From: a virus
Strand: one strand, 5' to 3'
DNA length: 30,937 nucleotides
IMG/VR virus record: IMGVR_UViG_3300036768_000205
Span: 1 to 30,937 of that record
The notes beneath the pieces are model-generated. The model had not been told where the DNA came from and ran no database searches. It saw nothing but the letters and a program-made list of their open reading frames with translations. The translations under genes were made by a program, and so were the position numbers. This document shows, in pieces, positions 364-29,668 of this stretch (positions are counted from its first letter, which is position 1; every line of letters begins with the position of its first letter).

Positions 364-735
364 CTATCTCGTTTTTAACAGCATTCGAGCCGGAGGTTCC
401 GGCTCTTTTTTGCTCGCTTTGAAGCGGATGTAGTCGAGTATTTCAGCCTGCTCTTGCGGGGATAACTGGGATAGCAGGTAAAGCAGTTCTTCCCCATACT
501 CAGTATCGGGGGGCTTGGGCGGAAGCAAGCCGGCGCGCCGAAATACTATTTCGGGCGGGAGGTTGAAGGCGCGGGCAATGGCAACAAGTACGTCACTATC
601 AGGCTTTTCTCTCTGGCGATTTACATAGGTGCTGATAACTTGGCGGTTTAAACCGGCTTCTCTGGCTAGGTCTGCCTGAGACCAGCCACGTTTGTTCATT
701 TCGGCAATCAGCCAATCGGAAAAATCCATGTCCAT
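364..735 (-). CDS. XRE-family HTH repressor (CI-like)
   Basis: A protein of 123 aa with an N-terminal helix-turn-helix (residues about 8-62; recognition helix near NRQVISTYVNR) and a short C-terminal helical tail (LSPQEQAEILDYIRF) common in small XRE repressors. No S24 peptidase domain is present, so RecA-stimulated self-cleavage is not expected. It is the only leftward phage gene, divergent from the early operon, with paired operator-like sites between: the layout of a lysogeny switch. The start at 735 has a second ATG two codons later and no clear SD. Its codons include one copy of the window-wide palindrome (496-506, read as DTEYG). Confidence 0.85.
   Translation of the reverse strand: MDMDFSDWLIAEMNKRGWSQADLAREAGLNRQVISTYVNRQREKPDSDVLVAIARAFNLPPEIVFRRAGLLPPKPPDTEYGEELLYLLSQLSPQEQAEILDYIRFKASKKEPEPPARMLLKTR
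387..411 (+). terminator. Rightward rho-independent terminator inside the repressor 3' end
   Basis: GAGCCGGA (387-394) pairs with TCCGGCTC (398-405) around a GGT loop, followed by six T. It acts on plus-strand transcripts, so it would stop host transcription entering the prophage from the left. It overlaps the last codons of the minus-strand repressor. Confidence 0.7.
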
Positions 736-761
736 AATTGCTTACATTTTGTCACCGATTT

Positions 762-779
762 TGTCTTTTTTGGATGACA
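762..779. promoter_or_regulatory. Operator-like site 1 (TGTC-N10-GACA)
   Basis: TGTCTTTTTTGGATGACA matches the site at 822-839 in length and in its outer TGTC/GACA and inner GATGACA. A further TGTCA half-site lies at 750-754. It lies just upstream of the repressor start and is probably a repressor or Cro-type binding site. Confidence 0.55.
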
Positions 780-794
780 TTTAGAAATTGGGTA

Positions 795-2000: not shown

Positions 2001-2308
2001 ATATCGGGAGCAATTCTGGAACGATTTTGGGCGTATTCCTGCTGTTATTTGCGTTCGGTGTTGGCTACAACGCACTGGTCGCCTGGCTGGAACGCCAGGG
2101 CTACACAGAAGGCTATTTGAGTCTGGTCGTTGCGTTTGGCGTCGCTGTGACCCTGTGCGGCGTCTCGATACTGAGTATCCACGCGGCGCTGCTGACCCTG
2201 GGCGCGTTTGTCGCCAGCGGGACGCCGATGATTGTGGGCAGTATTGTGCGTTACCTGCGCAAACGGGAAGAGATGAAGCGGTCCATCATCGAGGAAATTG
2301 GAAGATGA
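1997..2308 (+). CDS. Small membrane protein, two to three spans
   Basis: A protein of 103 aa from the ATG at 1997, chosen because AGGAG lies 8 nt upstream; an earlier in-frame start at 1958 has no SD. Hydrophobic segments lie at about residues 8-26, 38-57 and 60-80, followed by a basic cytoplasmic tail (RYLRKREEMKRSIIEEIGR). Function unknown. One copy of the window-wide palindrome (2168-2178) lies in it, read SILSI. The stop overlaps the next start (ATGA). Confidence 0.7.
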   Translation: MNIGSNSGTILGVFLLLFAFGVGYNALVAWLERQGYTEGYLSLVVAFGVAVTLCGVSILSIHAALLTLGAFVASGTPMIVGSIVRYLRKREEMKRSIIEEIGR

Positions 2309-2589: not shown

Positions 2590-3360
2590 ATGGCAACCCC
2601 TATGACTACTCAATATGACCCATGGGCGGAAGCGAACAACCCGCCGGAACCTGTGTATCAGAATTTTTTGTGGGGCCGGGTGACCATAAACGCCTGGCTG
2701 TGCGCCCTGGTAAAGGGTGTGGGAAAGGTCCCGTATGATCCACAAGAGCATAACGAAAACCGCTTCACGGCAATTGACATCAGCATCGAAGCCTTACCGG
2801 AAATGAACATCACCAACGACAACATCCTGAAACGCTCTACGCTGGCAACCAGTAAAGACTGGCGTACGATCATCAAGCCGTCTCTCGATGATCTGGGATA
2901 CACCGACGCGCGGCAAGTTGTTGGCAAGTGGGTAAAGGTTGAAACCGTGCGCACAGGACGCACTTACTACAAGGATGGCGAAGAAAAGCACGAGACGACC
3001 TTCAAGTTTGTGGAAGTCTTTGCCGACGAAGCGGCCTGCCGTGCCGATTTTCTGGCGGCAAATCCCGAAAAGAACAACGGCCATGAGGCCGACGAAATTT
3101 CGTTTGAATCTCCCGCTTCCGCTCCAGCCCCTGCCCCTGTCCCTGATGACAAAGAGCGAAAAACCGCCTGGGCGTTTGCGCAAGCCGCATTGAAGTCGAA
3201 GACTGCTAACTGCAAAACGATCGATGAAGTCATGGCAAAAGTGCCCGAAGCCCTGGCGATGTACCCGCAGGTATCCAAGTTTTTCAGTCCTGACAGTCCA
3301 GAGGTCATGAACTGGCTGACGGAATGGGAAGTAAGCCACGCTGAAGAAATGCCGTTTTAG
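2590..3360 (+). CDS. Putative phage SSB-like protein with EEMPF tip
   Basis: A protein of 256 aa. Residues about 20-150 are beta-rich and could form an OB-type fold (NRFTAIDISIEAL, WVKVETVRTGRTYYKDG, TTFKFVEVFADE). A Pro/Ala linker (SPASAPAPAPVPD) and a helical segment lead to an acidic end finishing EEMPF, resembling the DDDIPF-type tip by which bacterial SSBs bind partners. It is followed by an ERCC4 nuclease and a Sak4-like ATPase, a family reported to need its cognate SSB for annealing. AAGGAG SD. The OB fold is inferred from pattern, not from a clear family match. Confidence 0.55.
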   Translation: MATPMTTQYDPWAEANNPPEPVYQNFLWGRVTINAWLCALVKGVGKVPYDPQEHNENRFTAIDISIEALPEMNITNDNILKRSTLATSKDWRTIIKPSLDDLGYTDARQVVGKWVKVETVRTGRTYYKDGEEKHETTFKFVEVFADEAACRADFLAANPEKNNGHEADEISFESPASAPAPAPVPDDKERKTAWAFAQAALKSKTANCKTIDEVMAKVPEALAMYPQVSKFFSPDSPEVMNWLTEWEVSHAEEMPF

Positions 3361-3571: not shown

Positions 3572-3685
3572 GGCGACCGGGGTGCGAGGCCCCGGCGGGC
3601 ACATAGCAGGCTGTGCCAGCCAGCCTGTGAATCTCCTCCTTTGTGAAGGGGCGGGAGGAAGGCGCGTAGCGGTTGCTCCCGCCCC
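3572..3685 (+). ncRNA. Structured leader before the nuclease gene
   Basis: The 156-nt gap contains three strong helices: CCGGGG-TGCGAGG-CCCCGG (3577-3595); GGCACA/TGTGCC (3598-3617), which competes with CAGGCTG/CAGCCTG (3607-3627); and a perfect 10-bp stem GGGGCGGGAG/CTCCCGCCCC (3648-3657/3676-3685) ending 15 nt before the ATG at 3700. Mutually exclusive stems next to an SD (AAAGGG, 3687-3692) suggest translational control. Its start resembles 1136-1164: GGCGAC, a hairpin with loop TGCRAGK, then GGGC. Confidence 0.5.
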
Positions 3686-3699
3686 GAAAGGGAAAAACC

Positions 3700-4422
3700 A
3701 TGAATAAACTGAATGCCATCCTGATTGACAGCAGAGAACCCGCCTGGGTGCAGGCATTGGACTTTAACGCACCAAAAATGAACGGACCGTGTGAAGCAGG
3801 AGACGCATGGGCGATTACATCTGATGAATACACGCTCATCATCGAACGCAAAACCCCGGATGACTTTTTGCAAAGCCTGAAAGACGGACGGCTGTTTGAG
3901 CAGGTACGCCGTCTGGGAGAGTATCGCTACCAGGCGCAACTAAAAGGCGAAAAACCCACCATGCTGCCGTACCTGGTCATCACTGGTGCATTCACGCCAG
4001 GGAGCGACGGCAAGGTGTATACCAGCCGTCAGACTGGCTGGAGTTTTGCGGCAGTCATGGGCGCAATACTGAGTATTCAGGAAGCGGGCGTTTACGTGGT
4101 GTTCTGCAATGGGGACAACGATTACCGAGACTGTATCTTGCGTCTCGCCAGCCGCGATCGCAGCGAGACGCTGGATATTCTGCCGCAGCGACCCATCGAA
4201 TTGCTGGGGCCAAAGGAGACAGTTGTCGCGTCCCTGCCTGGTATTGGAATAGAGCGGGCCAAAGCCGCACTGGAGTGGGGAGGCTGGCATCTTGGATGGA
4301 CGCTGGTTGGTTTAACCGACCCATCTTTAGAAAAATCACCCGTGCCGCGTACGGTGCGGGCGAATATCCGCGCCCTATTTGGGCTGGGCGCGGATGAAGA
4401 ATTAACCATCATTTCAAAGTAA
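3700..4422 (+). CDS. ERCC4/XPF-type structure-specific nuclease
   Basis: A protein of 240 aa. The N-terminal LIDSREP (residues 8-14) and the catalytic series G34-D35 ... E49-R50-K51-x3-D55 match the ERCC4 nuclease motif, in which the acidic residues bind metal. A helix-hairpin-helix (about 175-205, VASLPGIGIERAKAALEW) should bind DNA without sequence specificity. The protein would cut branched or flapped DNA during phage recombination or replication. The start at 3700 is preferred over an in-frame ATG at 3673, which lies inside the stable hairpin. It precedes a Sak4-like ATPase by 15 bp. It carries the palindrome at 4066-4076 (ILSI). Confidence 0.85.
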   Translation: MNKLNAILIDSREPAWVQALDFNAPKMNGPCEAGDAWAITSDEYTLIIERKTPDDFLQSLKDGRLFEQVRRLGEYRYQAQLKGEKPTMLPYLVITGAFTPGSDGKVYTSRQTGWSFAAVMGAILSIQEAGVYVVFCNGDNDYRDCILRLASRDRSETLDILPQRPIELLGPKETVVASLPGIGIERAKAALEWGGWHLGWTLVGLTDPSLEKSPVPRTVRANIRALFGLGADEELTIISK

Positions 4423-4437: not shown

Positions 4438-5289
4438 ATGTTTCAGAAAGCGATACGAACACAAGGCAAGTTGCGCATGACAATTGACGGACCTGCTGGC
4501 AGTGGCAAGACCTATACTGCCCTGAGATTTGCCCACGTCCTGGCGCAAGGGGGCAAAATCGCGGTCATTGACACGGAGCGCGGGAGCGCCAGCAAATATG
4601 CCGGTGAGGCCCCCGATGGCATTCCCTGGCAATTTGACACGGCGCAACTGGTGACATTTGGACCTGACCGCTATACCGAGGCGATTTTAGCGGCGGTCCG
4701 CGCCGGCTATTCAGTACTGGTGATTGACAGCCTGAGCCACGCCTGGGAGGGCGTTGGTGGCGCATTGGAGATGAAAGACAAAATTGCCGGCAACGGAAAC
4801 CAGTACACCGCATGGCGCGAGGTCACCCCGCTGCACAACCGCATGATTGATGCCATCTTGCAGGCGCCCATGCACATCATTACAACCATGCGTTCCCGTA
4901 CGGAATACGTGATGGAGACCAACGAACAGGGAAAAATTATCGGGGTACGACGTGTAGGCATGTCGCCGGTGCAGCGTCCTGGCATGGAGTATGAGTTCGA
5001 CATCGTGTGCGATATGGACTGGAGCCATGTGCTGACAGTTGGCAAGAGCCGCTGCCCGGCGGTGGCGGATTTGCGCGTGGAAAAGCCAGGTCCGGAATTC
5101 ATCCGCCTGGTGATGGAATGGCTGAATGGCGGCAATCCGGTACCACCGAAGAAGGCGATTACGCTGGAAGCCCTGATTACTCAGTATGGGGCTGAATCGG
5201 TTTTGGAAGCAAACGGTGGAATGCCGCCCAGCACGCAGGAAGAGATTGAGCAGGTGGCAAAGCGGTTGGGTTTAATCCAATCCGTATAA
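4438..5289 (+). CDS. Sak4-like RecA-fold ATPase (recombination/annealing)
   Basis: A protein of 283 aa with Walker A GPAGSGKT (residues 18-25), an acidic motif VIDTERGSA (43-51) and Walker B VLVID (93-97). It fits phage AAA_24/Sak4 proteins, minimal RecA-like ATPases acting as single-strand annealing or recombination factors. Next to a nuclease and an SSB-like protein, it completes a compact homologous-recombination set. SD AAAGGAG. The C-terminal 50 residues (from about VPPKKAITLEALI) are probably a small helical add-on. Palindrome copy at 5177-5187, read ITQYG. Confidence 0.8.
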   Translation: MFQKAIRTQGKLRMTIDGPAGSGKTYTALRFAHVLAQGGKIAVIDTERGSASKYAGEAPDGIPWQFDTAQLVTFGPDRYTEAILAAVRAGYSVLVIDSLSHAWEGVGGALEMKDKIAGNGNQYTAWREVTPLHNRMIDAILQAPMHIITTMRSRTEYVMETNEQGKIIGVRRVGMSPVQRPGMEYEFDIVCDMDWSHVLTVGKSRCPAVADLRVEKPGPEFIRLVMEWLNGGNPVPPKKAITLEALITQYGAESVLEANGGMPPSTQEEIEQVAKRLGLIQSV

Positions 5290-7221: not shown

Positions 7222-9063
7222 ATGCCCATCACCATTGCCGACCTGCATATCCCCGAACACGAAATGAAAGCCCTGGACCAGGCATACTTCATCAACGATG
7301 CCTGGCTCGGCGACCTGGAACTGATTGCTGCCGCAATTGATACCAACCAGCCGCCAAGCCGCATTCCGGCAACGCAGCCCTGGGCGCTGATTGCCGAGCA
7401 GATACTGAGTAACGTGACCATGGGTGATGGCATTACCCCGGCAGCCCTGCGAAATGCAGTAACGATGGCTATCGGGCGGGCGATTGAATGGCGGCGCAAC
7501 GCCGATAAACGCTCGAAGATGACCAGCAAACTGAACGCGCTGAGGGCGGCGCGGGTGATCAACCCATACCTGGAATCGCCAGATGAGGACCTGAAAGCGC
7601 GGATTACCACAACACTGGTGGACAAGGAAACATCCGCTTTAGAGCGAAAACAAATCGCAGAAGCGCTGCTGCTCGACTGGCTGGGGGCGCATGGGCGGTT
7701 TATCCGCTCCGCTGAGGGGTTTATCCATTACCTGTATGAGAAGACGCACAAACTGTATGACCTGGAATCTACAGCGTGGGACGCGTGGCTGCACGCACTG
7801 ACGGGAGTCAACCCGGCGCTGACGGATTACAAGGTCCTTCTCAACGCCACCCAAAGCGCAGCACACAATCGGGGGCAGGAGCACTCAGTAGTGAAACTGG
7901 CGCATTGGGACAACGCTGCGAAAATTCTGCGCGTGACCCGTTTCGATGGGGTGACATACGTTTTGACCGGAACGGAAATCTGTCAGGAGAACAACGGCGA
8001 TGGTCCAGTCATCTTCCTGGATTCTCCCATCTGGCAGGCGTATGACCCGGACTTCGACGCGGGCTTTGAAGACTTCATTGCGCCGTTTACGCGACAAACG
8101 TGGGGCAGTACGTCCCAATGGGCGGCGGCGGTTTGGGCGCTTTCCCTGTTTTTCACCGAGTTGTGCCCAACGCGCCCGATTGCAGTTTTCCTTGGCGAAA
8201 AGGGAAGCGGAAAAAGCATGACCCTGCGCATGATTTTGCGCCTGCTTTTTGGCAGTATGGCTGAACTGCTGGCAACGCCGGATAAACCAGATGATTTTCT
8301 GGTGAGCGCTTATCACAATCACGTTTTGGCGCTTGACAATTTTGACGGTTTTCAGGAGTGGATGCGCGACCGCCTGGCCGGGCTGGCAACTGGTATCGAG
8401 ATGCAAATGCGCACCCTGTACACCAACAAGGAACTGACGCCTATGAAATTCCGCTCCTGGCTGGCGGTGACGGCGCGGCAGCCGGACACGCTCAAACGTG
8501 ATGACCTGGCAGATCGGCTCCTGATTTTCAAACTGGAGCGCATCAAAGATGAACAACGGACACGTGAGGGATATTTTTTGGATGCGATTGCCGCCATGCG
8601 TAATCGCTGGTGGGGCGGCATGCTCAATCTGTTGAACCAGATAGTGGCTTACTTGCGCAATAACAACCTGCCCGACAACAGCCCGCTGCGCATGGCAGAT
8701 TGGGAGGTTTTCGGGCGGGCAGTCTCTCAGATGATGGGAAAAACAGATGAATGGAAGATGATTGTAGCCGAACTGAAAAAGGCTCAAGGTGAATTTCTGG
8801 CTGAAGACATCATTGTCGAGGCGATTCAAAAGTGGCTGGAAATTCCTACCAACATCAACCGCGAGGTGCTGGCACGTGACCTGTACGCCGAATGTGAAGC
8901 GGTCCTGTTCAACGGCAATAAGCCGGATAGTGACTGGCCGAGAAGCGTTAAGTCTTTCTCACACCGGCTTTCAAATGTTGCTGAATATCTGAAAAATGAA
9001 TTCGGTATGAAAATTCGTCCAGATAATCGGCATGGCAATTGGATTCAGTTTGTAAAAGCATGA
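7222..9063 (+). CDS. AAA+/SF3-like replicative helicase ATPase
   Basis: A protein of 613 aa. Walker A GEKGSGKS lies near residue 325 and Walker B VLALDNFD near residue 370, followed by an arginine-rich sensor region (AVTARQPDTLKRDDLADR). The N-terminal 300 residues have no recognised motif. The C-terminus is a probable winged-helix region (EVLARDLYAECEAVLF ... PDNRHGNWIQFVKA). With a PrimPol-CHC2 primase just downstream it most likely unwinds DNA for phage replication, as D5-type helicases do. The stop codon is the first three bases of the inverted repeat at 9061. Palindrome at 7402-7412 (QILSN). Confidence 0.7.
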   Translation: MPITIADLHIPEHEMKALDQAYFINDAWLGDLELIAAAIDTNQPPSRIPATQPWALIAEQILSNVTMGDGITPAALRNAVTMAIGRAIEWRRNADKRSKMTSKLNALRAARVINPYLESPDEDLKARITTTLVDKETSALERKQIAEALLLDWLGAHGRFIRSAEGFIHYLYEKTHKLYDLESTAWDAWLHALTGVNPALTDYKVLLNATQSAAHNRGQEHSVVKLAHWDNAAKILRVTRFDGVTYVLTGTEICQENNGDGPVIFLDSPIWQAYDPDFDAGFEDFIAPFTRQTWGSTSQWAAAVWALSLFFTELCPTRPIAVFLGEKGSGKSMTLRMILRLLFGSMAELLATPDKPDDFLVSAYHNHVLALDNFDGFQEWMRDRLAGLATGIEMQMRTLYTNKELTPMKFRSWLAVTARQPDTLKRDDLADRLLIFKLERIKDEQRTREGYFLDAIAAMRNRWWGGMLNLLNQIVAYLRNNNLPDNSPLRMADWEVFGRAVSQMMGKTDEWKMIVAELKKAQGEFLAEDIIVEAIQKWLEIPTNINREVLARDLYAECEAVLFNGNKPDSDWPRSVKSFSHRLSNVAEYLKNEFGMKIRPDNRHGNWIQFVKA

Positions 9064-9175
9064 GGGTATTGAGGGTATTAAAAGGCACTTTTCATTAACT
9101 TTCTGTTGCATGCAAATTTTAAAGAATTTACAGAAACTTTTTAAAAATGGCATTTCAATACCCTCAATACCCTCA
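9061..9175. repeat. 19-bp inverted repeat of doubled 9-mers with AT-rich core (candidate origin)
   Basis: TGAGGGTATTGAGGGTATT (9061-9079) is perfectly repeated in inverse orientation at 9157-9175. Each arm is two direct copies of GAGGGTATT. The 77 bp between are AT-rich with A/T tracts and TGCATGCA. The site lies between the helicase and primase genes, a position and composition fitting an iteron-type replication origin or a regulatory site. It also allows a long RNA stem in the helicase 3' end. Confidence 0.6.
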
Positions 9176-9193: not shown

Positions 9194-9403
9194 ATGCAAA
9201 AACTACCAGACAATCAGGAAGTTGAGATTTACTGCCCAAACTGCAAATGGCCGGTCAAACTGATTGTAAAGACGAACCGCATTACTAGAAATCAGTTTTT
9301 GGGATGTCCAAACTGGCCAGACTGTAACCACACTCAGTCCATTCCGGAGTCAATTGTTATGCGGCTTAATGGACAACCCACACTCTTTGGAGATAACCCA
9401 TGA
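9194..9403 (+). CDS. Small topoisomerase-type zinc-finger protein
   Basis: A protein of 69 aa with CPNC (residues 14-17) and GCPNWPDCNHT (38-48), the pattern of the C4 zinc finger at the end of bacterial topoisomerase I. It probably binds single-stranded DNA. The start at 9194 has an ACGGAGG SD; an in-frame ATG at 9110 would translate the inverted repeat and has no SD. The 4-nt overlap with the primase start (ATGA) suggests coupling. Confidence 0.75.
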   Translation: MQKLPDNQEVEIYCPNCKWPVKLIVKTNRITRNQFLGCPNWPDCNHTQSIPESIVMRLNGQPTLFGDNP

Positions 9404-10269
9404 ACGACTACATTGAGCAATTCCACAAGCAAGGCATTTCGGTTATCCCGCTGAAGCTACAGGATAAGCGCCCCGATCCTGCTGTACTGCCCGATGGTCG
9501 CTGGGAACTGTATCAGACCACACCCAATACTGAGTATGAACTCTCTCGCTGGTTTTCCGCTCCGAGAAACTACGGGGTTGTTTGCGGCTGGCAAAACCTG
9601 GTGGTGCTGGATTTTGACGACTGGACAACGTACAACCGCTGGGCGGCGTGGGCAATCGGTGCCGGTCCGTTGCCAAAAATGACGGCAGACAGCGCGTTTC
9701 GGGTGGCGACCAGCCGCGGCGTTCATCTGTACATCCGCACGTTTCTGGATGTTAACCGCAAACTGCCAGGGCTGGACATCAAGATACACGGCTACGTTGT
9801 GGGGCCGCTTTCCATTCATCCCAGCGGGGCAGTATATGAGCCGCTGAATGAAATGCACTTTCCGTATGTGCCCAGCATCGGCGATATTCTACCGGTTGAA
9901 TGGCTGGCGGCGATGCCGGTCCCCAATACTGAGTTGCGGGTTCCGACCATTCATGAGCGGGATATTTGGGAGGCGGTGAATGCGGGCTTCAATGCTGGCA
10001 AGGATGTTATCGGGTTGATCCGTGAGAAGTTTCGGGTTGAAACGTTTTTCATCAATCGGCGCAGCAGTGACGGCGGTAAGGGGCGGTGGTGGATGGCGCG
10101 GTGTCCGTTTCACGATGACCAGCATCCCAGTTTGTGGATTGATGCTGAGCGGGGAATTTGCCAGTGTCATGTTTGTCACGATAAGCCGCTGGATGTCATC
10201 AATCTGTATGCTGCACTGAAAGGGATTAGAAATGAGCAGGCTATCCACGCGTTGGCGAAAATGTTGTGA
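9400..10269 (+). CDS. PrimPol (AEP) primase-polymerase with C-terminal CHC2 zinc finger
   Basis: A protein of 289 aa. The N-terminal part is an archaeo-eukaryotic primase domain: GISVIPL (13-19), the catalytic VVLDFDDW (about residues 66-73), the GVHLYIR motif (about 107) and VGPLSIHPSG (about 131-140). The C-terminus carries a CHC2-type zinc finger (CPFH near 232, CQCHVC near 252) of DnaG-like primases. The order PrimPol then CHC2 is a fusion that would make primers at the phage origin with the upstream helicase. Palindrome at 9527-9537 (NTEYE) and a degenerate one at 9926. Confidence 0.85.
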   Translation: MNDYIEQFHKQGISVIPLKLQDKRPDPAVLPDGRWELYQTTPNTEYELSRWFSAPRNYGVVCGWQNLVVLDFDDWTTYNRWAAWAIGAGPLPKMTADSAFRVATSRGVHLYIRTFLDVNRKLPGLDIKIHGYVVGPLSIHPSGAVYEPLNEMHFPYVPSIGDILPVEWLAAMPVPNTELRVPTIHERDIWEAVNAGFNAGKDVIGLIREKFRVETFFINRRSSDGGKGRWWMARCPFHDDQHPSLWIDAERGICQCHVCHDKPLDVINLYAALKGIRNEQAIHALAKML

Positions 10270-11673: not shown

Positions 11674-12998
11674 CCCCTACTGAGTATGCTGAACGGCTTG
11701 TTTCTGTGATTGAGCGCACCCTGGCGGGGTTGCGGCTGTACCCACCGCGGCAGTATGCGCTAAAGGAACGCAATGGACTGTGGTGGCTGGACTGTGTTTT
11801 TGATGTGGCTGCGGCTGGCAGAACAGTAGAAGTGTACGAGCGGGCGGCGCATACGGTGGGAGCGGCGATTGGTCGCCCGGTGTACACCAGCAATCATGTC
11901 GGGATGCGGTACGGCATCCTGCTGTCTCCCAAACCGCGTCTGCCGCAACGAGTTGATTTGCCGAGCGATGGCGTTACGCTGGACGTATTCCGGCTGGGTG
12001 TTTCGCTGCGCGGAGAGGTGACCGTATCGGCGCGGGCGATGGTGAATGCGCTGATCGGCGCCAGTCAGGGGGCGGGCAAGTCGAACATAATGCACCTGTT
12101 TGCGCACCAGGCGCTGGCGTTTGGCTGGAAGTTATACCTGGCGGACCCGCAGAGTCACACCTTCAACCCGGACCGCTGGAATGGGTTGGCGGCAATGGCA
12201 GTGGCAGGGAGTGTGGATGACTTGCGTAAGGTGCTGGATGCGGTGGAGGGTGCCCTGGCCGACCGCGTGGCGCAGTTCCGGGCGGCGGCGCAGACGCTGG
12301 GGCTGGTCCCAGCGGACCTGGACGCTTATAACGCCCAGATAGAGACGCCGCTGCCGCGCATTGGCCTGCTGGTAGATGAAGCCAACACTTACCTGGTTGA
12401 CCGGCGCATCCTGCAACGGCTGGCCGACCTTGCGCGGCAGGCGCGCAAATTCGGCATTCACCTGATGCTTGCCGGGCATGACTGGCGGGCTCAGGACGTG
12501 CCGCGCGAACTTTCGGCGATGCTGCCAACCCGCATTGCATTGGCAGTGGCAGATAGCACCAGCGCGCGGGTGGTGTTGGATAATGAGCGTTGGGGTAAAT
12601 GGTTGATAGGCAAGCCGCCAGGGCGGGGTGTGTTGAAACTGGGACAGTTTGTACCTATGCAATTTTACCTGGCGGGCGATCTGCCGCAGGGTGAGCACGT
12701 TTTGCCGTTGATGGAGACCGAACGGCAGATTGCGGAGAAGGCTCTGGCGGAGACCGGCGGCAAGATCAGCCTGGATGTTTTGATGGGGTGGGGGCTTGGT
12801 CAGCGTGAAGCACGGCGTCTTCAGGATACCTGGAAATCTCGTGGCTGGGCAGAGATTGACCCGGCGCGCAGGAATGGTTTGTATATCACCTCAAAATTAA
12901 CCGGTTTGATTGACAAACTGACAAACTCGACAAACTTGACAAACTGCCCTGAAACGGCTGACAAACTGACAAACTGCCCCGACAAACTGACAAACTGA
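11670..12998 (+). CDS. FtsK/HerA-type DNA translocase with winged-helix tail
   Basis: A protein of 442 aa. Walker A GASQGAGKS (about residues 130-138), Walker B IGLLVDEAN (about 230-238), and an FtsK/HerA ATPase core with GIHLMLAGHDW. Residues about 350-405 (ISLDVLMGWGLGQREARRLQDTWKSRGWAEI) look like a winged helix, as in the FtsK gamma domain that reads KOPS. The last 30 residues are a DKLTN repeat made by the 8-bp DNA repeats at 12912-12996. It could move double-stranded DNA in conjugation-like transfer or partition. Overlaps the lipoprotein gene (ATGA). Palindrome at 11677-11687 (PTEYA). Confidence 0.8.
   Translation: MTPTEYAERLVSVIERTLAGLRLYPPRQYALKERNGLWWLDCVFDVAAAGRTVEVYERAAHTVGAAIGRPVYTSNHVGMRYGILLSPKPRLPQRVDLPSDGVTLDVFRLGVSLRGEVTVSARAMVNALIGASQGAGKSNIMHLFAHQALAFGWKLYLADPQSHTFNPDRWNGLAAMAVAGSVDDLRKVLDAVEGALADRVAQFRAAAQTLGLVPADLDAYNAQIETPLPRIGLLVDEANTYLVDRRILQRLADLARQARKFGIHLMLAGHDWRAQDVPRELSAMLPTRIALAVADSTSARVVLDNERWGKWLIGKPPGRGVLKLGQFVPMQFYLAGDLPQGEHVLPLMETERQIAEKALAETGGKISLDVLMGWGLGQREARRLQDTWKSRGWAEIDPARRNGLYITSKLTGLIDKLTNSTNLTNCPETADKLTNCPDKLTN
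12912..12996 (+). repeat. Eight direct repeats of GACAAACT at the 3' end of the translocase gene
   Basis: Exact GACAAACT copies start at 12912, 12920, 12929, 12938, 12960, 12968, 12981 and 12989. They form two blocks separated by GCCCTGAAACGGCT, with GCCCC between copies six and seven. They encode the Asp-Lys-Leu-Thr-Asn tail. They could be an iteron, partition or transfer site, recalling the 8-bp TraB recognition repeats of Streptomyces plasmids. Confidence 0.8.
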
Positions 12999-14227: not shown

Positions 14228-14680
14228 ATGAGTATGCTGACAAACAAAAAGCGTAGGTTTATTGAGTACTACCTGCAGTCGTGGAATGCGACCAGAGCGG
14301 CGAGAGAGGCAGGTTATGCCTTCCCTGACCGTCAGGCCAGCCGCATTCTGAAGGACGCGGATGTTGTTGCTGCGGTAAAAGAGCGAATGCAGGAAGTGGC
14401 GATGGAAACAGATGAAATCCTGGCGCGACTGTCGCAACAAGCACGGGCAGACATCAGCCCCTACCTACTGAGTAGTGGAGAGCCAAACTGGGATGTTATC
14501 CGGCAGGCGGGTCATCTTGTAAAACGGGTAGCGAAAAATCGTAATGGCTGGGTGGTGGAATTGCATGACGCGCAATCGGCGCTGGCGATTCTGGCGAAGG
14601 CGCGGGGACTAATGGTAGAACGAGTGCTGCAAAATCAGTCACAGGTGAATATCTATTTGCCAAAGAAAGAAGAATTATGA
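14228..14680 (+). CDS. terS: Terminase small subunit
   Basis: A protein of 150 aa of the Terminase_2 type. The N-terminus KKRRFIEYYLQSWNATRAAREAGY is the helix-turn-helix that recognises phage DNA at packaging start; RQASRILKDADVVAAVKERM and a helical centre for ring assembly follow. A second start at 14234 is possible. The stop overlaps the endolysin start (ATGA). It follows the promoter-terminator module directly. Palindrome at 14465-14475 (LLSS). Confidence 0.85.
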   Translation: MSMLTNKKRRFIEYYLQSWNATRAAREAGYAFPDRQASRILKDADVVAAVKERMQEVAMETDEILARLSQQARADISPYLLSSGEPNWDVIRQAGHLVKRVAKNRNGWVVELHDAQSALAILAKARGLMVERVLQNQSQVNIYLPKKEEL

Positions 14681-18190: not shown

Positions 18191-19179
18191 GTGACATCTA
18201 CCAGGTAACCGATGACTTTCGGCGGCGGCTGCTGAGGCAGGAACGAGAAGCGGCGGTCGAGATGACGCGGGCATATGCCAGAATTTGGATGCGGGTGAAA
18301 CAGGAAATTGATGACCTGCTGGCGGAGTGGGAACGGGATGGCGGCGTGAATGCTGGCCCGGATTGGGTTTATCGTTACAACCGGCTGCGCAAGTTGGAGG
18401 CGCAAATTCAAGCCGAACTAACCCGTTATACTGAGTATGCGGAACAGCGGATAGAGACTGAACGGAGGCGGGCGGCAAAACTGGGTGCAGAAGGCGCGCT
18501 GTTTCAGTTGGGGATTGCAGGGGAGTTCGACCGTTTGCCTGCTGGCGCGGTAAGGCAGGTTGCCGCGGCGATTCTGGCGGATGGGTCACCGTTGAAAATC
18601 CTGCTAGGGACATTGCCAGATAATGGTGCAAAAGTGGTGGGGGATGCGCTGATTCAGGGCATGGCACTGGGGAAGAGCGTGCGAGAGATTGCCGGAGATA
18701 TGCGGGTGGCACTGGGTGGCAACCTGACGCGGGCGCTGCGGATCGCACGGACGGAGACGCTGCGCGCATACCGTGAGGCAACACGGGCAACATATCGGAA
18801 GATGGGTGTGCAACAGTGGGAGTGGCGCAGCGCGCGGAACGAGCGGACGTGTGCGGTGTGCTGGGCAATGGACGGAAAACGGTTTAGCGTGGATGAACCA
18901 ATGCCCGCGCATGTCAATTGTCGGTGTGTAATGTTGCCAGTAACGGACACATGGGAGGCGTTGGGGGCTGTAGGTATTGATGAGTTGACGCAGCAAGAAC
19001 CCGCGCTAGAGCGTTTTGCAAGTTTGCGGCCTGACCAGCAATTAATGGTGTTAGGTCCAGCGAAATTTAGGGCGTATAACGACGGAGTAATAGAATTATC
19101 TGATCTGGTAGGCTGGAAGGTAAACCCGTTTTGGGGCAAAAGTGTATATGAGCGTAGTCTTGCAGAATTGAATTACTAA
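18187..19179 (+). CDS. Minor head (MuF/SPP1 Gp7-type) protein
   Basis: A protein of 330 aa starting at GTG in a 4-nt overlap with the portal gene. An N-terminal helical region is followed by RIARTETLRAYREATRATYRKMGV and the zinc-like CAVCWAMDGKRF ... PAHVNCRC motif that defines the Mu F family. It joins a few copies of itself to the portal inside the head. The palindrome at 18428-18438 gives YTEYA. Confidence 0.9.
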   Translation: MSDIYQVTDDFRRRLLRQEREAAVEMTRAYARIWMRVKQEIDDLLAEWERDGGVNAGPDWVYRYNRLRKLEAQIQAELTRYTEYAEQRIETERRRAAKLGAEGALFQLGIAGEFDRLPAGAVRQVAAAILADGSPLKILLGTLPDNGAKVVGDALIQGMALGKSVREIAGDMRVALGGNLTRALRIARTETLRAYREATRATYRKMGVQQWEWRSARNERTCAVCWAMDGKRFSVDEPMPAHVNCRCVMLPVTDTWEALGAVGIDELTQQEPALERFASLRPDQQLMVLGPAKFRAYNDGVIELSDLVGWKVNPFWGKSVYERSLAELNY

Positions 19180-20221: not shown

Positions 20222-20803
20222 ATGGATGATGCAAATTTCCAGATGCAGAATGCCAATGGAGATCATGTTCAAGAACAATTTGATGAACAAACCCAAGAGC
20301 CAAAGACTTTCGATACTGAGTATGTAAAAAAGTTACGTGCAGAAGCAGCCAGGTATCGTAAAGAACGCAACGAACTGGAGGCGAGAGTTAAAGCTTTTGA
20401 ACAGGAGCGGATGACGAAAGAAGAGCAGGCCGCACAGAAGTTGAAAGAACTGGAAGAGCGCGAAAAGGCACTGACCGAGCGGATGCGCTCCAGCAATCTG
20501 CGCGCCGCTATTATGACGGCGGGCGCTGGGAAACTGGCGTCGGTAGATGCCGCCATGAAACTACTGGATGCCAATACGATTGAGTTTGACGAAGACAATA
20601 ACCCGGTTGGTGTCGAAGCGGCGGTGGCGAAACTGCTCAAAGAGTATCCATTTTTGGGCGTACAGATGCCGCCAAGTGGCGACAAAACCAACCCAGAGCG
20701 GGGCGGGCGTAATGCCCTGACTCTCGACGACATCAAACGCATGTCACCATCCGAAATCAACGCGCGCTGGGAAGAGGTCAGCGCGGTGATGAGCAAAAAA
20801 TAA
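20222..20803 (+). CDS. Scaffolding protein (Gp20/DUF4355-like)
   Basis: A protein of 193 aa. The acidic N-terminus is followed by a long coiled coil (residues about 32-88, YVKKLRAEAARYRKERNELEAR and on) and then a conserved-looking tail where DAAMKLLDANTIEFDEDN matches the end of phage GP20-type scaffolds. Placed immediately before the coat gene, it should shape the prohead and then leave. Palindrome at 20313-20323 (DTEYV). Confidence 0.8.
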   Translation: MDDANFQMQNANGDHVQEQFDEQTQEPKTFDTEYVKKLRAEAARYRKERNELEARVKAFEQERMTKEEQAAQKLKELEEREKALTERMRSSNLRAAIMTAGAGKLASVDAAMKLLDANTIEFDEDNNPVGVEAAVAKLLKEYPFLGVQMPPSGDKTNPERGGRNALTLDDIKRMSPSEINARWEEVSAVMSKK

Positions 20804-21944: not shown

Positions 21945-22395
21945 CCTGGTACGCGGACTGATTGGCGACACCGACACGGTGGATAAAGCGTTCAGCGATG
22001 CCGAAATTGCCGCTGTGCTGAAACAGCACTCCGAGCAGGTGTACTACCTGCCATTGATGGTTTTTTCGGTCAAGGACGGCGGCGCGTGGCAGCAGCGCGA
22101 ATTTCGTGCGCCTGTCGGGTTTTGGGCAGACGATGCACACCTGTTCAATACTGAGTATGAGGTGGTGATACCGTCTATATCTGATCTGGTTGCTGGTCGC
22201 TGGATATTCACCAGCCACCAGCCCGGCATCTACCTGACCGGTACAACGTGTGACGTGTACGGCGCGGCGGCAGATCTGTTGAGCCTGTGGTCTGGTCGGG
22301 TCGGTTACGAGCAAAACGGGCGTGGCCAGGCGTTGATGGACGCGGCGCGGGAAATGCGCAAACGAATGCGCCCAAAGGTGGTGCCCAGTGACTAA
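21928..22395 (+). CDS. Head-tail connector (Gp6-like adaptor)
   Basis: A protein of 155 aa. The N-terminal MQNLIDLVRGLIGDTDTVDKAFSDAEIAAVLKQHS has the helical pattern of phage adaptor proteins that sit under the portal; the C-terminus ends in a helical AAREMRKRMRPK. Its place before a DUF3168 gene supports the role. It contains the palindrome at 22148-22158 (NTEYE). Confidence 0.65.
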   Translation: MQNLIDLVRGLIGDTDTVDKAFSDAEIAAVLKQHSEQVYYLPLMVFSVKDGGAWQQREFRAPVGFWADDAHLFNTEYEVVIPSISDLVAGRWIFTSHQPGIYLTGTTCDVYGAAADLLSLWSGRVGYEQNGRGQALMDAAREMRKRMRPKVVPSD

Positions 22396-23767: not shown

Positions 23768-24171
23768 CAACGGTTGTCAAGATTGTGCGTAATGACGTGG
23801 GCAAACTCGCCGCCGGTCTGAGAAATAGAGCAAGAGCGGCGGCGAGAAAAGCCGCGCTGGACACCAAGCGTGAGATTACCGACCGAATGAGTGATGCCAA
23901 AAGCGGACGCATTTACAAGCGCGGTCAAAAAATCCACCAGGCGAGCGCGCCCGGCGAAGCCCCGGCGATTGACACCGGGCTGCTTGTCAATTCAATCCAG
24001 GTGACCGATTATGGGCGGTTGGGTGCGATGGTGTACACCAATACTGAGTATGCTGATGTGCTGGAACTTGGCGGGCGTCACATTTTGCCGCGCCCATACA
24101 TGCGGCCAGCGGTTGAGAAAATCGCGCCAAAGTTTTTAGAGGCAACACGGCAATTGATTGAGAAAGGATAA
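23764..24171 (+). CDS. HK97 gp10-like tail completion protein
   Basis: A protein of 135 aa, basic, with SAPGEAPAIDTGLLVNSIQV and EYADVLELGGRHILPRPYMRPA, both typical of the gp10 family at the head-tail joint. It overlaps the tube gene by 4 nt. The palindrome at 24041-24051 supplies NTEYA at the point where the family normally has a Y-A-x-x-x-E-x-G pattern. Confidence 0.9.
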   Translation: MTTVVKIVRNDVGKLAAGLRNRARAAARKAALDTKREITDRMSDAKSGRIYKRGQKIHQASAPGEAPAIDTGLLVNSIQVTDYGRLGAMVYTNTEYADVLELGGRHILPRPYMRPAVEKIAPKFLEATRQLIEKG

Positions 24172-24536: not shown

Positions 24537-24715
24537 GTGAATGTCCTGACTGGTGGCCTGTGCTCAAAGCGGCACAAGAGGCAGGCGTCCCACTACTGAG
24601 TAATCTGCCTTTGATGCAACAGCCTGCTGCCGTGCGCTGGATGTATGAGATTGCGCGAGGCGTAGAGGCGGAAGCCATACGCGCGGCACAAAGTGGATTA
24701 CATCAACAGGCGTAA
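24174..24715 (+). CDS. Tail assembly chaperone, -1 frameshifted long form (GT-like)
   Basis: Slipping back one base at 24497-24503 joins the first 110 codons to an open frame of 70 codons ending TAA at 24713-24715, giving about 180 aa. The T-like part (CPDWWPVLKAAQEAGVPLLS, then MQQPAAVRWMYEIARGVEAE) has no start of its own. The layout equals lambda G/GT and its many relatives. The palindrome at 24593-24603 lies in this frame (PLLSN), a further sign that it is translated. Confidence 0.8.
24497..24503 (+). promoter_or_regulatory. A AAA AAC slippery heptamer for -1 frameshift
   Basis: A-AAA-AAC is in the correct phase (zero frame CGA AAA AAC). A short GGTGG-CTCG-CCAC hairpin lies about 10 nt downstream and could stimulate slipping. 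Confidence 0.8.
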
Positions 24716-24815: not shown

Positions 24816-27767
24816 ATGTTAGAGGTCGCCCGACTACTCGCAGTTTATGACGCCGACACACGCGGCTTTGACCAAAAGAGCAAAGACGTGGAAAACACGC
24901 TGGAAAGGCTGAGCGGTGGGAGCGTGTTTGGCGGCTTTGTCGGTGCGCAGATTTTCATGCAAGCGGCCAATGCTCTGGGAGGGCTGGCAGTTGAGGGCGT
25001 GCAAGCTTACGCCAGTTTTGAGCGCCTGGGTATGAGCCTGCAGACGTTGTCAGCGCGGGAGGCGATGAGCAGCGGGGCGGCAAAAAACATGGGGCAAGCC
25101 TTGGCCATGAGCAGCGGCAAAGCCAGTGAGTTGGTGGGTTGGATACAACAATTGGCTGTCAAAAGTCCATTTACCCGTGAGGGAGTAGCAACGGCATTTC
25201 GTCAGGCAATGGCCTACGGATTTACAACAGAGCAGACTCAACGATTAACCCAGGCAATGATTGATTTTGCGGCAGGCAGTGGGGCCAGCGAAGGCGCAAT
25301 GAGCCAGATTGCATTAGCATTAGGTCAGATACAAGCTAAAGGTAGATTAGCCGGACAAGAAATTTTACAACTGGTAAATGCTGGTATTCCTGTACAACAA
25401 ATTCTTGCTGATGCATTTGGCAAAAGTACAGCTGAGATTGCCAAGATGACCGAGCAGGGGCTAATCCCTGCAAATGCAGCCATCGAGGCAATTGTGCAAA
25501 GCCTCGAGAGAGATTTCGGCGGGGCGGCGGAACGGCAGGCCACGAGCGTAGCCGGATTGATTTCGTCATTGTCTGATCTGAAAGACATCAACCTGACTGC
25601 CTTTTTTGGCGGCTTTTTCGAGGAAGTGCAGCCGTACCTGACTGAATTTGTGGATGCCTTGAGCGACCCAGCCATGCAGGAAAACATGGCAGCGCTGGGC
25701 AAGAGCGCAGGCGAACTGGCAGTAACACTAATTGAGGGTGGCAAAGAGATACTCAGTATCTGGAATAGTATTCCGGAGCCCTTGCGTGGCGCGGCAATTG
25801 CATTGATTTCGATTGAGGCTGCCACGCCGCCCTTGATGGATGCCTTGGGGCGCGGCGCGATTGCACTACAGGGTTGGGGCAGTGCGTTAAAAAGCCTGCC
25901 CGGATTTTACCGTGACGTGCAGGCGGCGCAAGCGTTATTGCGGGAAGGCGCAGGTGTTTTTGACGTGATGAGCACCGGCGCGGCGGGACTGACTGCTACG
26001 CTGGGCCCGCTGGCTATGGCGCTGGCGGCAGTCACAGCAGTAGCTGTGACGTACAATCAGACAATTGCCAAAGCGCAAAATGAAGGCATGGCTGCAAACG
26101 CAGAAGCTTGGGCAAATGCACTTGCCAAAGTCAAAGAGCAGGGTGGTGGAACTCAGGCGATACTGGATGCTTATGCTGCTGGAATCAATCGTGTGAATGC
26201 TGCGTATGAATCCAGCGGAATCCTGGCAGATCTGTTCATCGATAAGCAAAAGATTATCACAAACGGATTACAAGCTACTCTATCGATATTGAGTGACAGC
26301 GCTGGGAGCTGGGAGGAATACAGCACAGCAGTGCAGCAGGCTGCTCAAATGGCGGGTTACCAGGTAGACGAACAAGGACGTATGTATACAGTGATCCGTA
26401 CTGGGGCTGGATTGGTACGCCATTATGCCACTGATCTAAACACGATGACTAAAGCCGAATGGATGGCGGCAGAAGCAACCCGCAACAGTGCCGAATATAT
26501 GGACAGCTGGGCTAGGGCGACCGATACTGCAAGTATAACGTCTTTGAAATTCGGTCAAAGCATTGTCAGCACGACTGACATTTTGAACACGCTGCAAACG
26601 GCACTGAGGGATGCGGGTGCATCCAACCCAGCGCAAATTTACGAGGACATTGCTGCCAGCCTTGGGGTTATCCCTACGGCGGCACAACAGGCAGCAGCGG
26701 ACGTGAAATTACTGAGTGAAGCTTTTGCGGCGGGGCTGATTGACCAAACACAGTACGTTGAGTACATGCAACAGGCACAGGAAGGAATACTTAATCTCGA
26801 CACTGCTACACGCAATTCGCTGCAGGGCATGATAGATAATGCTACTGCTACCCGAGAAGCCGCACAAGCAGCCGCAGATGCAGCTCAAAAATACTGGAGC
26901 CTTGCTGAGGCACTAAAGGGCGCACGTGAAGCCGAATTCGCCAAACAGATGCTGGATCAATTGGGTGAATTATTGAAGGGCGATACACCTAATGTGGAAC
27001 TCTACAATCAAGCTTATCAAAATCTAGCTTTGCAATACGGTTTTGTCAGCGAAAAAAGCATGGCATTAGCAAATGCTATCCCAACATTGACTGCCGCCAT
27101 ACAAGAGGGAACGCTCGCTCCGGAACAATTGTCTGAAGCAATAAAATTCTTGTTTCAGGATGCCGCCGATGGATCAATCAACTGGGATTTATTTGCTCAA
27201 AAATTCATGTCAGCCCCCGAAGCATTTGCTCCGGCACAAGGGGCTATTGAACAAATTTCAGGACAGATTTCGGAATTCGGATCAAATGTCACGTCAACTA
27301 GTACAGTTATATCAACTGAGTTCCCGAAATGGGTCACTACAGCACAAACAACATCCAAAGAAATTGTAAAAGCATTTGCAGCTGAGGATTGGATTAGAGT
27401 AGGTCTGGCTATCAGTGATGGGATAGCTCGGGGTATTGCACAAGGCGAAGGACGAATTATTGCAGCAGCACGAGCAGCAGCAGCAGCGGCATACACGGCG
27501 GCAGCTCAAGAACTGGACATCCATTCGCCATCCAAAAAATTTGAGTTTTTGGGCGAAATGGCGCTACGCGGGTTTGAAAAGCCGTTTTTGGGCAACGATT
27601 TGCAGCCGATTTTTCAAAACGCATTACTGCCTACCATTCCAGCGCCCTCCCATACTGAGTATAAGGGGGTCACGGTGAACAATCCGGTTTTCTCTTTTGC
27701 CGACACAACCTTGACACCTGAGGTTTTGGCGCAAACGATTAAACAACTGGAGTGGATGTATGGATAG
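24816..27767 (+). CDS. Tape measure protein
   Basis: A protein of 983 aa, the longest in the window. Start TRGFDQKSKDVENTLERLSGGSVFGGF; a TMP-type segment FTREGVATAFRQAMAYGFTTEQTQRLTQAMIDF with GRLAGQEILQLVNAGIPV; hydrophobic spans near residues 305-325 and 395-415; C-terminal LDIHSPSKKFEFLGEMALRGF, common at tape-measure ends. At about 1.5 angstrom per residue it implies a tail near 150 nm. Palindromes at 25749 (ILSI) and 27652 (HTEYK), plus a degenerate one at 26709. Confidence 0.95.
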   Translation: MLEVARLLAVYDADTRGFDQKSKDVENTLERLSGGSVFGGFVGAQIFMQAANALGGLAVEGVQAYASFERLGMSLQTLSAREAMSSGAAKNMGQALAMSSGKASELVGWIQQLAVKSPFTREGVATAFRQAMAYGFTTEQTQRLTQAMIDFAAGSGASEGAMSQIALALGQIQAKGRLAGQEILQLVNAGIPVQQILADAFGKSTAEIAKMTEQGLIPANAAIEAIVQSLERDFGGAAERQATSVAGLISSLSDLKDINLTAFFGGFFEEVQPYLTEFVDALSDPAMQENMAALGKSAGELAVTLIEGGKEILSIWNSIPEPLRGAAIALISIEAATPPLMDALGRGAIALQGWGSALKSLPGFYRDVQAAQALLREGAGVFDVMSTGAAGLTATLGPLAMALAAVTAVAVTYNQTIAKAQNEGMAANAEAWANALAKVKEQGGGTQAILDAYAAGINRVNAAYESSGILADLFIDKQKIITNGLQATLSILSDSAGSWEEYSTAVQQAAQMAGYQVDEQGRMYTVIRTGAGLVRHYATDLNTMTKAEWMAAEATRNSAEYMDSWARATDTASITSLKFGQSIVSTTDILNTLQTALRDAGASNPAQIYEDIAASLGVIPTAAQQAAADVKLLSEAFAAGLIDQTQYVEYMQQAQEGILNLDTATRNSLQGMIDNATATREAAQAAADAAQKYWSLAEALKGAREAEFAKQMLDQLGELLKGDTPNVELYNQAYQNLALQYGFVSEKSMALANAIPTLTAAIQEGTLAPEQLSEAIKFLFQDAADGSINWDLFAQKFMSAPEAFAPAQGAIEQISGQISEFGSNVTSTSTVISTEFPKWVTTAQTTSKEIVKAFAAEDWIRVGLAISDGIARGIAQGEGRIIAAARAAAAAAYTAAAQELDIHSPSKKFEFLGEMALRGFEKPFLGNDLQPIFQNALLPTIPAPSHTEYKGVTVNNPVFSFADTTLTPEVLAQTIKQLEWMYG

Positions 27768-28599
27768 ATGGGAATGGATAACGCCGGATGGTATTGTCGT
27801 ACCGCTGGATAAAGACCCCATCTATCTGCATCCAGAAATCAGCGGGTATCTGATGCCGCCATTCAAGCGGTCAGAACGCTGGCTTGGGAGCGTTGGCACG
27901 CTAACCGGACTGCGCGTTGATGCGCGCGATGTATTTTTGCCTCTGACGGTTAAGGCAGATAATTTGATGGATGCTTTGCGTCTGATAGCGCGTTATTTCA
28001 ACCCGCAAGACGGGATTGGCAGGCTGCGCGTGACGATTGGGAGTACTGTGCGCGAATTAGCCTGTCAATATGTTGGCGGACTGGATGGCGACGGGCACGA
28101 CAACGGGCCAGGCTGGCAGAGGATCGGGTTGCGGCTGCGCGCTCTCCAGCCCTACTGGCAGGCAGACGTACCAAAAAATTTTGTTTTCGTAATGGATGCG
28201 CCGATGACGTTTTTCCAGTACCCATTTTTTCCACTGCACATATCACGTGGCACAATTAATGGGTCTGTGATCGTGTTCAACAGCGGCGATGTACCCACCT
28301 ATCCCATCATTACAGCAAATGGAAAATTTACGAGTTTGCAGGTGAGCAATCTGAACACCGGCAAGACGCTGGCGTTTCCGACGTTGAGCATGGTGGACGG
28401 TGACAACCTGGTCATTGACACCCGCCCGTCCGCGTTGAGTGTGCGGCTGAACGGCAATAATGCCTTCGGGTTGCTATCGGCTGCGTCGAGTTTGTGGTCA
28501 ATTAAGTCAGGGCAAAATCACTTGCAGATTATCACGACCGGAACAAACAGCAACAGCGTGGTGAGAATCTCATTTACTGAACAATTTTTGACGGTGTGA
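27760..28599 (+). CDS. Distal tail protein (Dit-like)
   Basis: A protein of 279 aa overlapping the tape measure gene by 8 nt. An N-terminal beta domain (RSERWLGSVGTLTGLRVDARDVFLPLTVKADNLMDALRLIARYFNP) like Dit, which forms the hub at the tail tip, is followed by a second beta-rich domain. The position directly after the tape measure supports this. Confidence 0.7.
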   Translation: MDRWEWITPDGIVVPLDKDPIYLHPEISGYLMPPFKRSERWLGSVGTLTGLRVDARDVFLPLTVKADNLMDALRLIARYFNPQDGIGRLRVTIGSTVRELACQYVGGLDGDGHDNGPGWQRIGLRLRALQPYWQADVPKNFVFVMDAPMTFFQYPFFPLHISRGTINGSVIVFNSGDVPTYPIITANGKFTSLQVSNLNTGKTLAFPTLSMVDGDNLVIDTRPSALSVRLNGNNAFGLLSAASSLWSIKSGQNHLQIITTGTNSNSVVRISFTEQFLTV

Positions 28600-28600
28600 A

Positions 28601-29668
28601 ATGGACTATGAGGTGTTTCTCGAAACGATGAGCGGCGAGCGCGTTGGGCAGTTGCCATTTGAATCGCTGCAGATAACGCTGCGGTACAACGAACCGGGGC
28701 GGGCCAAACTGACATTTTCCGCCACACAAATGACGGCGGACGTGTTTGGTACAGCCTACCGCCTGTTAGTGCGCAGGGATGGCGTCAATCTCATGTCTGG
28801 GATGGTGACAAGCGCGCGGCGCTCCTGGAACGCTAATAATGACCAGGTGGACATTGGAATTACGGACGATATGGCATTGCTGGGCACGCGCCTGATTGTG
28901 CCCGTGCCCGGTGGACCGCCCTACACCAGTGCCGACCATGATGTGCGTACTGGAGCGGTTGAAACCGTGATGCACGCCTACGTCAACGCGCACGCAGGCG
29001 CGGGGGCAACAACCGCCCGCCGGATTGACGGACTGACCCAGGCGGCTGACCAGGCGCGCGGCGGGACCTTGACGGCGCGGGCACGGTTCACCCCATTACT
29101 GAGTATGCTGCAAAAACTTGCCTCGTTAGGGGGGTTGGGGTTTCGTGTAGTTGGGATGCAATTTCAGGTATATCAGCCGGTGTCATCGGCTGTCACCTTT
29201 AGCCAGGAGATGAACAACCTGTTGAAATTCACGCGCACGGTGAGCGTGCCAGACGGCAATTATATTTACGCCGGCGGCGGCGGCGAAGGCACAAGCCGCA
29301 TCATCGTGGAAGCGGGCAATTTTGACAGTATTATGCGCTGGGGACGGCGCGAAATGTTCCTGGACCAGCGTAACACCAGCGACATCAGCGAATTACAGCA
29401 GGCAATTACCGCCCGCCTGAATGAACAGATTGGAAAAGAAGAAACAATCCAGTTTGAAGGCACGACATCGCTTGACCAGGTTGGTCTTGGTGACATTGTG
29501 AACGTGAAATTTGACAATACGGTATACCCGATAACTATCCGACAAATTACCATCCGTACGGATGAGGTAAGCGAGGACGTAGTAATAACATCCGGGGTGG
29601 ATAAGCCCGACATTTACCGGCGCATGGATGACGCCGAGGAAAGCATCGCACTTTTGGAGGTGAGATAA
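28601..29668 (+). CDS. Siphovirus ReqiPepy6 Gp37-like tail protein
   Basis: A protein of 355 aa. The pattern of LQITLRYNEPGRAKLTFSA, a beta barrel, then NYIYAGGGGEGTSRII and QFEGTTSLDQVGLGDIVNVKFDNTVYPITIRQITI matches the Gp37-like family, baseplate hub proteins related to Tal. Palindrome at 29096-29106 (LLSM). Overlaps the next gene by one base. Confidence 0.8.
   Translation: MDYEVFLETMSGERVGQLPFESLQITLRYNEPGRAKLTFSATQMTADVFGTAYRLLVRRDGVNLMSGMVTSARRSWNANNDQVDIGITDDMALLGTRLIVPVPGGPPYTSADHDVRTGAVETVMHAYVNAHAGAGATTARRIDGLTQAADQARGGTLTARARFTPLLSMLQKLASLGGLGFRVVGMQFQVYQPVSSAVTFSQEMNNLLKFTRTVSVPDGNYIYAGGGGEGTSRIIVEAGNFDSIMRWGRREMFLDQRNTSDISELQQAITARLNEQIGKEETIQFEGTTSLDQVGLGDIVNVKFDNTVYPITIRQITIRTDEVSEDVVITSGVDKPDIYRRMDDAEESIALLEVR

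Follow-up and report, generated by a model that had tools for sequence, protein, structure and literature searches.

The window, i.e. the whole stretch of DNA analysed here, is an IMG/VR virus record of 30.9 kb, and its features are collected in Table 1. At the left end (nt 190–243, minus strand) the 3' part of a tRNA-Pro gene (anticodon TGG) is followed by a terminator-like hairpin. Judged from the sequence only, this is probably an attachment site, which suggests a prophage or a circular form. The integrase ends and the repressor presumably resemble those of Chloroflexota phages, and no relative of the XRE repressor was found in viral contigs. A GC-rich, structured-looking segment (nt 1130–1475, plus strand) ends in a tRNA-Ala called by ARAGORN (nt 1389–1461); it matched no Rfam family at the gathering score and none convincingly at an E-value of 10, and is possibly an undescribed tRNA-like RNA. 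Farther to the right a gap (nt 24174–24816) separates a small tail gene from the tape measure gene. It has one site of the word described below inside it, and may represent a frameshifted tail chaperone.

The product of the gene prim joins two domains, and the corresponding families, PF09250 and PF01807, were present in all 17 homologues scanned. Residues 5–144 match the PDB profile of pRN1 ORF904 (E = 4.5e-14), while residues 212–297 match the profile of the DnaG zinc domain (1d0q/2au3). An AF2 model (pLDDT 83.7) was matched by Foldseek to 3m1m (E = 4.4e-8) and to 1d0q (E = 1.6e-4), and NrS-1 PrimPol is less closely similar (fold match 6a9w). No copy of prim was found among 50,697 annotated phages, and distant homologues were detected on three archaeal plasmids only.

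Table 1. Coordinates of the replication genes, the candidate origin and the 19 copies of the word (sites) in the window.
Feature	Position (nt)	Strand	Remarks
Site in XRE repressor gene	497..505	-	
Site	2169..2177	+	no confidently called gene
SSB-like protein of replication module	2590..3360	+	function inferred from position; in all long motif-bearing records
ERCC4/Hef-type nuclease of module	3673..4422	+	PF02732, E 4.9e-12; co-occurrence
Site in ERCC4 nuclease gene	4067..4075	+	
Sak4-like ATPase of module	4438..5289	+	phrog_1366, phrog_124; co-occurrence
Site in Sak4-like gene	5178..5186	-	
AAA/helicase-like replication protein	7222..9063	+	weak PF13401; directly upstream of candidate origin
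Site in helicase-like gene	7403..7411	+	
Candidate replication origin	9061..9175		TGAGGGTATTGAGGGTATT ... AATACCCTCAATACCCTCA; inverted pair of direct repeats round AT-rich stretch
prim	9400..10269	+	Prim-Pol (AEP) N-terminal domain and C-terminal DnaG-type CHC2 zinc ribbon; proposed word reader
Site inside prim	9528..9536	+	
Site in FtsK-like gene	11678..11686	+	
Site	13754..13762	-	
Site in terminase small subunit gene	14466..14474	+	
Site in TerL gene	16090..16098	+	
Site in portal gene	17883..17891	+	
Site in MuF-like gene	18429..18437	+	
Site in scaffold gene	20314..20322	+	
Site	22149..22157	+	aligned site in relative L043 centre-flipped (opposite orientation)
Site in neck protein gene	24042..24050	+	
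Site	24594..24602	+	between called genes
Site in tape measure gene	25750..25758	-	
Site in tape measure gene	27653..27661	+	
Site in Gp37-like gene	29097..29105	+	

Abundance of the word and its distribution among phages

The word TACTGAGTA occurs in 19 exact copies in the window (15 on the plus strand and four on the minus strand), about one per 1.6 kb, and 11 of them extend to ATACTGAGTAT. These counts, and the gaps of 546–2225 bp between sites, were recounted and agree with the original prediction. When one mismatch was allowed, 47 matches were found, while dinucleotide shuffles averaged 1.87 and the reversed-pattern control gave none. Since the single-base neighbours of the word have counts near chance, it is nearly all-or-none. 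The earlier proposal that selection acts on the DNA and not on the proteins is supported. When synonymous codons were shuffled with all proteins kept, the mean was 0.52 copies (maximum four in 1000 shuffles) compared to the 17 observed in genes, so codon use fails to explain the word. The statement that every copy lies within a gene holds for these 17, in which the TEY and LLS/ILS peptides are simply the two open frames of the word, but not for the copies at nt 2169 and 24594, which are outside genes that can be called with confidence.

The sites are also spaced more evenly than chance, as had been proposed (coefficient of variation 0.33 versus 0.93 for random placement, p < 0.001). Over 15 phages taken together the sites are less strikingly even, though the effect is real (combined Z = -3.9); the window is the extreme case, and no same-strand spacing rule was significant overall in this set. 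As TACTGAGTA is a near-palindrome of odd length (a 9-mer), it is a G-centred word on one strand, and so has a direction.

Five unrelated genomes have about 0.5–4 copies of the word per Mb. The TerL relatives recovered in the one genome scan were all distant, and their genomes are not enriched in the word, and a literature search for the word itself returned unrelated text only. Among phages with related TerL and capsid genes, it is common only to the close ones. A pattern scan of viral contigs, on the other hand, recovered motif-rich phages with different structural genes and GC content, including G062 (23 copies in 44 kb), G063 (30 in 42 kb) and G064 (28 in 39.5 kb). What these three have in common with the window is the Prim-Pol, the ERCC4 nuclease, the SSB-like protein and the Sak4-like ATPase. 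The word tracks this replication module, which the original prediction had left aside.

Prim was found in every record of 20 kb or more that had been selected by the motif (G062–G064, G101, G102, G103, G105, G106, G108 and G111). In a test of 50 records, prim was found in seven of seven motif-rich records of at least 20 kb and, at full length, in only one of 34 motif-poor records (G130, which uses the C dialect described below); in a second motif-poor record, G127, only the N-terminal half of prim is matched, and weakly. TACTGAG, the core of the word, is present at 6–33 times the expected number in prim-bearing records, compared to 72 observed and 94 expected in 74 control loci. Scans based on the Prim-Pol alignment and on integrases agree with this, as the word is present at loci with prim and missing from integrase relatives of lower identity. 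Phages that share the integrase or TerL but have no prim are without it, and so are the related prim-less phages G095, G096 and G098. A second prim-guided scan, started from a different lead sequence, gave 4–34 times enrichment wherever the homologue was at least 35% identical, and no enrichment for more distant Prim-Pols. Three distant Prim-Pol/zinc proteins (L414, L415 and L416; 30–34% identity) belong to phages without TACTGAG, and may use other words.

Genes for the XRE, RHH, helicase-like, terminase and FtsK-like proteins are not universal among the motif-bearing records. The RHH protein, which had been put forward as a candidate reader, and the XRE protein are accordingly rejected in this role: RHH is present in only six prim-bearing records, and neither protein has a homologue in motif-rich records of 33–47 kb such as G084, G087, G106, G108 and G130. 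The suggestion that the word organises DNA for packaging, or is read by the FtsK-like protein, fared no better, as that gene was seen in the window alone among the first 22 records compared. The helicase-like protein is ruled out as well, being missing in the motif-bearing G064, G084, G090 and G091. The SSB-like, ERCC4 and Sak4 genes, in contrast, are nearly universal and accompany prim in all of the long records, which means that statistics alone cannot single out prim; nor are counts across phages fully independent, because the phages share ancestry.

Several other words were noted during these comparisons. ACCWGGT is enriched in the window, G063, G065, G087, G089, G093, G094 and G098 (ACCAGGT: 15 observed versus 2.7 expected in the window, and 26 versus 4.2 in G089), and is likely independent of TACTGAG; G098 has no prim. 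The TerL relatives L010, L011, L012, L017, L018, L021, L022 and L031 have highly repeated words of their own, namely GGGATCC (the alternate HIP of hot-spring Synechococcus), GCGATCGC, CCGTTGCCG and GCGCCAGGAGC. Individual phages also over-represent a particular 6-bp palindrome (CTGCAG in G085 and G063, CCGCGG in G091, ATCGAT in G087), possibly the modification sites of their hosts.

Direction, dialects and the orientation switch at prim

Across the uncultured phages, whose records are fragments, the conserved unit is directional, and consists of a C-rich tract (-10 to -3), any base, A and TACTGAG, followed by TA in most phages and by C(A) in others. Its constant part is TACTGAG with A in front. 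In 296 TA sites there is an excess of C at -8 to -3, on the 5' side of the G-centred strand, while the 3' side has none; in G101, G106, G108 and G111 the C-tract is found at -10 to -3 (chi-squared up to 101), and it was seen again in loci not previously inspected. Some prim-bearing phages use a non-palindromic sister word, TACTGAGC, about once per kb (19 copies in 26 kb of G094, 44 copies in 43 kb of G130), and several GC-richer prim loci have the C form only. The palindrome had originally been taken as the functional unit, a view that the non-palindromic C dialect and the one-sided C-tract lead us to reject. Within the TA dialect a change of the single centre base reverses direction, an example being the site at nt 22149 when the window is compared with L043. 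The dialects (TA versus C or mixed) cluster on the prim tree, requiring five changes compared to 6.7 after shuffling, a number as low being reached in two of 200 shuffles. Base composition may contribute to this pattern, because the C dialect is commoner in GC-richer genomes.

A hairpin or cruciform was considered and rejected, as a weak signal in 30 sites was gone in 296. In the larger set the folding energy of the flanks, examined for priming sites of the hairpin (ssi/G4) type, equals that of shuffled sequence (|z| below 1), and the complementary flanks suspected from the 30 sites are not found. In G091, close pairs of sites (less than 400 bp apart) are nearly all in opposite orientation (12 versus 2), while other phages differ.

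For the polarity test, each phage was turned so that prim reads rightward, and sites within 6 kb of the prim start were scored. Downstream of the start 79 sites are co-oriented and 31 opposed, while upstream the numbers are 21 and 49; none of 2000 permutations of orientation within each phage reached the observed switch. In a scan over ±8 kb the switch peaked between 0 and -500 bp relative to the start codon of prim. Coding constraints are not its cause, because genes are co-directional on both sides and the switch remains when only those sites are counted that lie in co-directional genes (p = 3e-6). It was found again in 11 unseen loci, which have no 31-mer in common with the earlier records (30:10 downstream versus 10:17 upstream, p = 0.002). 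The orientation is a bias, of about 70:30, and not a rule. Sites are also densest beside the switch, with 1.54 sites per kb in the first kb downstream of the prim start compared to 0.61 overall (2.5 times denser, across phages).

In the window, the switch coincides with repeats whose 46-nt arms are 83% complementary (nt 9061–9175). In 21 of 26 phages, the segment immediately upstream of prim ranks at the 95th percentile of its own genome or higher for repeat density. The DNA there has an AT excess of 10–12%. The AT-rich iteron repeats at the switch look like a replication origin. For a rightward fork leaving this segment the plus strand is the lagging template, and co-oriented sites are in excess there.

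The iterons deserve a separate description. In about 26 phages they lie 50–400 bp upstream of prim and are accompanied by inverted copies, and the repeat unit (e.g. AGGTTGGA, GTTACAGA, GGTCGCAC, AGGTTGAC, GAGGAGGTG) is entirely different between phages. This change of unit suggests a fast turnover of origin sequences.

A putative primase start signal and its alternatives

The direction of the word flips beside prim, and copying probably begins there; the word is therefore most likely a primase start signal, and we consider it likely that the primase of the phage itself recognises the word and starts there. Replication would begin at the repeat-rich, AT-rich segment, from which forks would leave both ways, and the lagging template of each fork would expose 5'-C-rich(8)-N-A-TACTGAG-TA-3'. 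The Prim-Pol/zinc-ribbon protein would bind TACTGAG and copy the adjoining C-tract into a short G-rich primer. Under such a scheme the phages would keep one site per 1–2 kb, in whichever gene happens to be there, and mostly on the lagging-template strand. A word, a short spacer and an 8-base C-tract is the layout that such an enzyme would be expected to select, since it would place a stable G-rich primer by the word. We infer that prim, rather than one of its neighbours in the module, reads the word, and that the C-tract is the template of the primer. As for a template site of an AEP primase, an AEP Prim-Pol is encoded, the word is directional with the C-tract on its 5' side, and it prefers the lagging template relative to the putative origin (the 70:30 bias). 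Most of what is known of primase start sites comes from in vitro work on a small number of enzymes, and such sites usually span three bases; that the core of the word is longer than most known sites counts against the proposal.

The polarity would be equally expected of a directional word of the Chi or KOPS type, because the lagging template and the leading strand have the same sequence. Such a word would be placed with replication polarity and read by a recombination or translocation machine, either the Sak4/ERCC4 module, host AddAB/RecBCD or FtsK. A recombination-type ATPase and the ERCC4 nuclease do co-occur with the word, its spacing is mildly regular, and it is oriented relative to replication as Chi sites are. 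A Chi read by the host should, however, also mark phages without the module, and the prim-less relatives named above do not have the word; FtsK is disfavoured, as the FtsK-like gene was seen in the window alone among 22 records. The C-tract beside the word and the density peak by prim are primase-like, and the dialects follow prim. We regard a Chi- or KOPS-like word as unlikely.

It is also conceivable, with a rather smaller chance, that another protein of the module (SSB-like, ERCC4 or Sak4) reads the word, for example in primosome loading as at primosome assembly sites. The co-occurrence of all three with prim in the long records would accommodate this. Proteins of these families, however, recognise DNA structure or bind regardless of sequence, and known template words of this layout exist only for Prim-Pol and DnaG zinc domains.

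A host-wide palindrome of the HIP1 type, arising from host methylation and repair and passively common to the phages, would agree with the density of the word (0.2–1 per kb), and distant TerL relatives do carry other HIPs, e.g. GGGATCCC (PMC4390886). Against this, the orientation reverses at a phage gene, the C-tract is one-sided, the word of G130 and G094 is not a symmetric palindrome, and phages sharing the integrase or TerL but not prim are without the word, so that we consider this origin quite improbable. The polarity switch at prim is likewise at odds with a DNA uptake sequence, which would be genome-wide in the host and have no replication polarity.

Stoperators, i.e. silencing sites of the XRE repressor or the RHH protein as in phage L5, are very improbable. 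Although the window encodes both proteins and the palindromic dialect is operator-like, the motif-rich records listed above have homologues of neither, and the sites lie in genes of both strands, with an orientation that switches at prim. A composition or codon artefact can practically be dismissed, common peptides though TEY and LLS are, as it is refuted by the codon shuffle and by the absence of enrichment in the 74 control loci.

Returning to the primase start signal, it seems reasonably likely that these uncultured phages form a large family with an AEP/DnaG-zinc hybrid primase and the initiation word C8-N-A-TACTGAG-TA or -CA, maintained genome-wide at about 0.6 per kb with lagging-strand polarity, in which enzyme and word have co-diverged into dialects. 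A word of 7–9 bases and an 8-base tract have been kept across divergent phages, so strongly that terminases, portals and tape measures have to accommodate the peptides it encodes. If the proposal is correct, the co-divergence of enzyme and word would allow one to tell from sequence alone where replication of an uncultured phage starts and which way its forks move, so that priming rules could be tested in the same way and origins mapped without a cultured host. The TA and C dialects would then be natural enzyme-site pairs for the choice of start site by a zinc ribbon and Prim-Pol, and a sequence-specific primase of this kind is a possible practical tool.

Comparison with known systems

HIP1 and the alternate HIPs of cyanobacteria are also short and found inside genes in hundreds of copies per Mb, but they are host-wide, symmetric and linked to methyltransferases (PMC4390886), whereas the word has a direction and is linked to a replication gene of the phage. 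Chi and KOPS share with it an orientation relative to replication, but are read by host RecBCD/AddAB or FtsK, for which linkage to a phage primase would be unexpected. The stoperators of mycobacteriophage L5 are similarly dispersed in many copies over one phage; they are read by a repressor, while motif-rich phages in the current study are without XRE or RHH homologues. T7 gp4 and the DnaG zinc-domain primases recognise trinucleotides. The C-terminal domain of prim is a zinc ribbon of the DnaG type (1d0q, 2au3), although the catalytic domain of those enzymes is TOPRIM and that of prim is AEP.

Two AEP enzymes are more closely comparable. The PrimPol of phage NrS-1 reads TTTGGTTA or GTGA and starts 1–4 bases 5' of the word (PMC8718748). 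Like prim it is an AEP primase from a phage and has a matching fold (6a9w), and the longer of its words has 8 nt, but its site is flexible, its domain plan is different, and the distribution of the word over the genome is not described in PMC8718748. ORF904 of pRN1 (Sulfolobus) has a homologous Prim-Pol; it differs from prim in its three-base word, 5'-GTG-3', in the absence of a DnaG zinc ribbon, and in that a genome-wide spread of GTG by selection is not reported in PMC8076596. The pRN1 primase depends on a GTG in its template, 5' of which it synthesises a primer of 8 nt (PMC8076596), an arrangement in which the primer template lies directly 5' of the word, as the C-tract lies 5' of TACTGAG.
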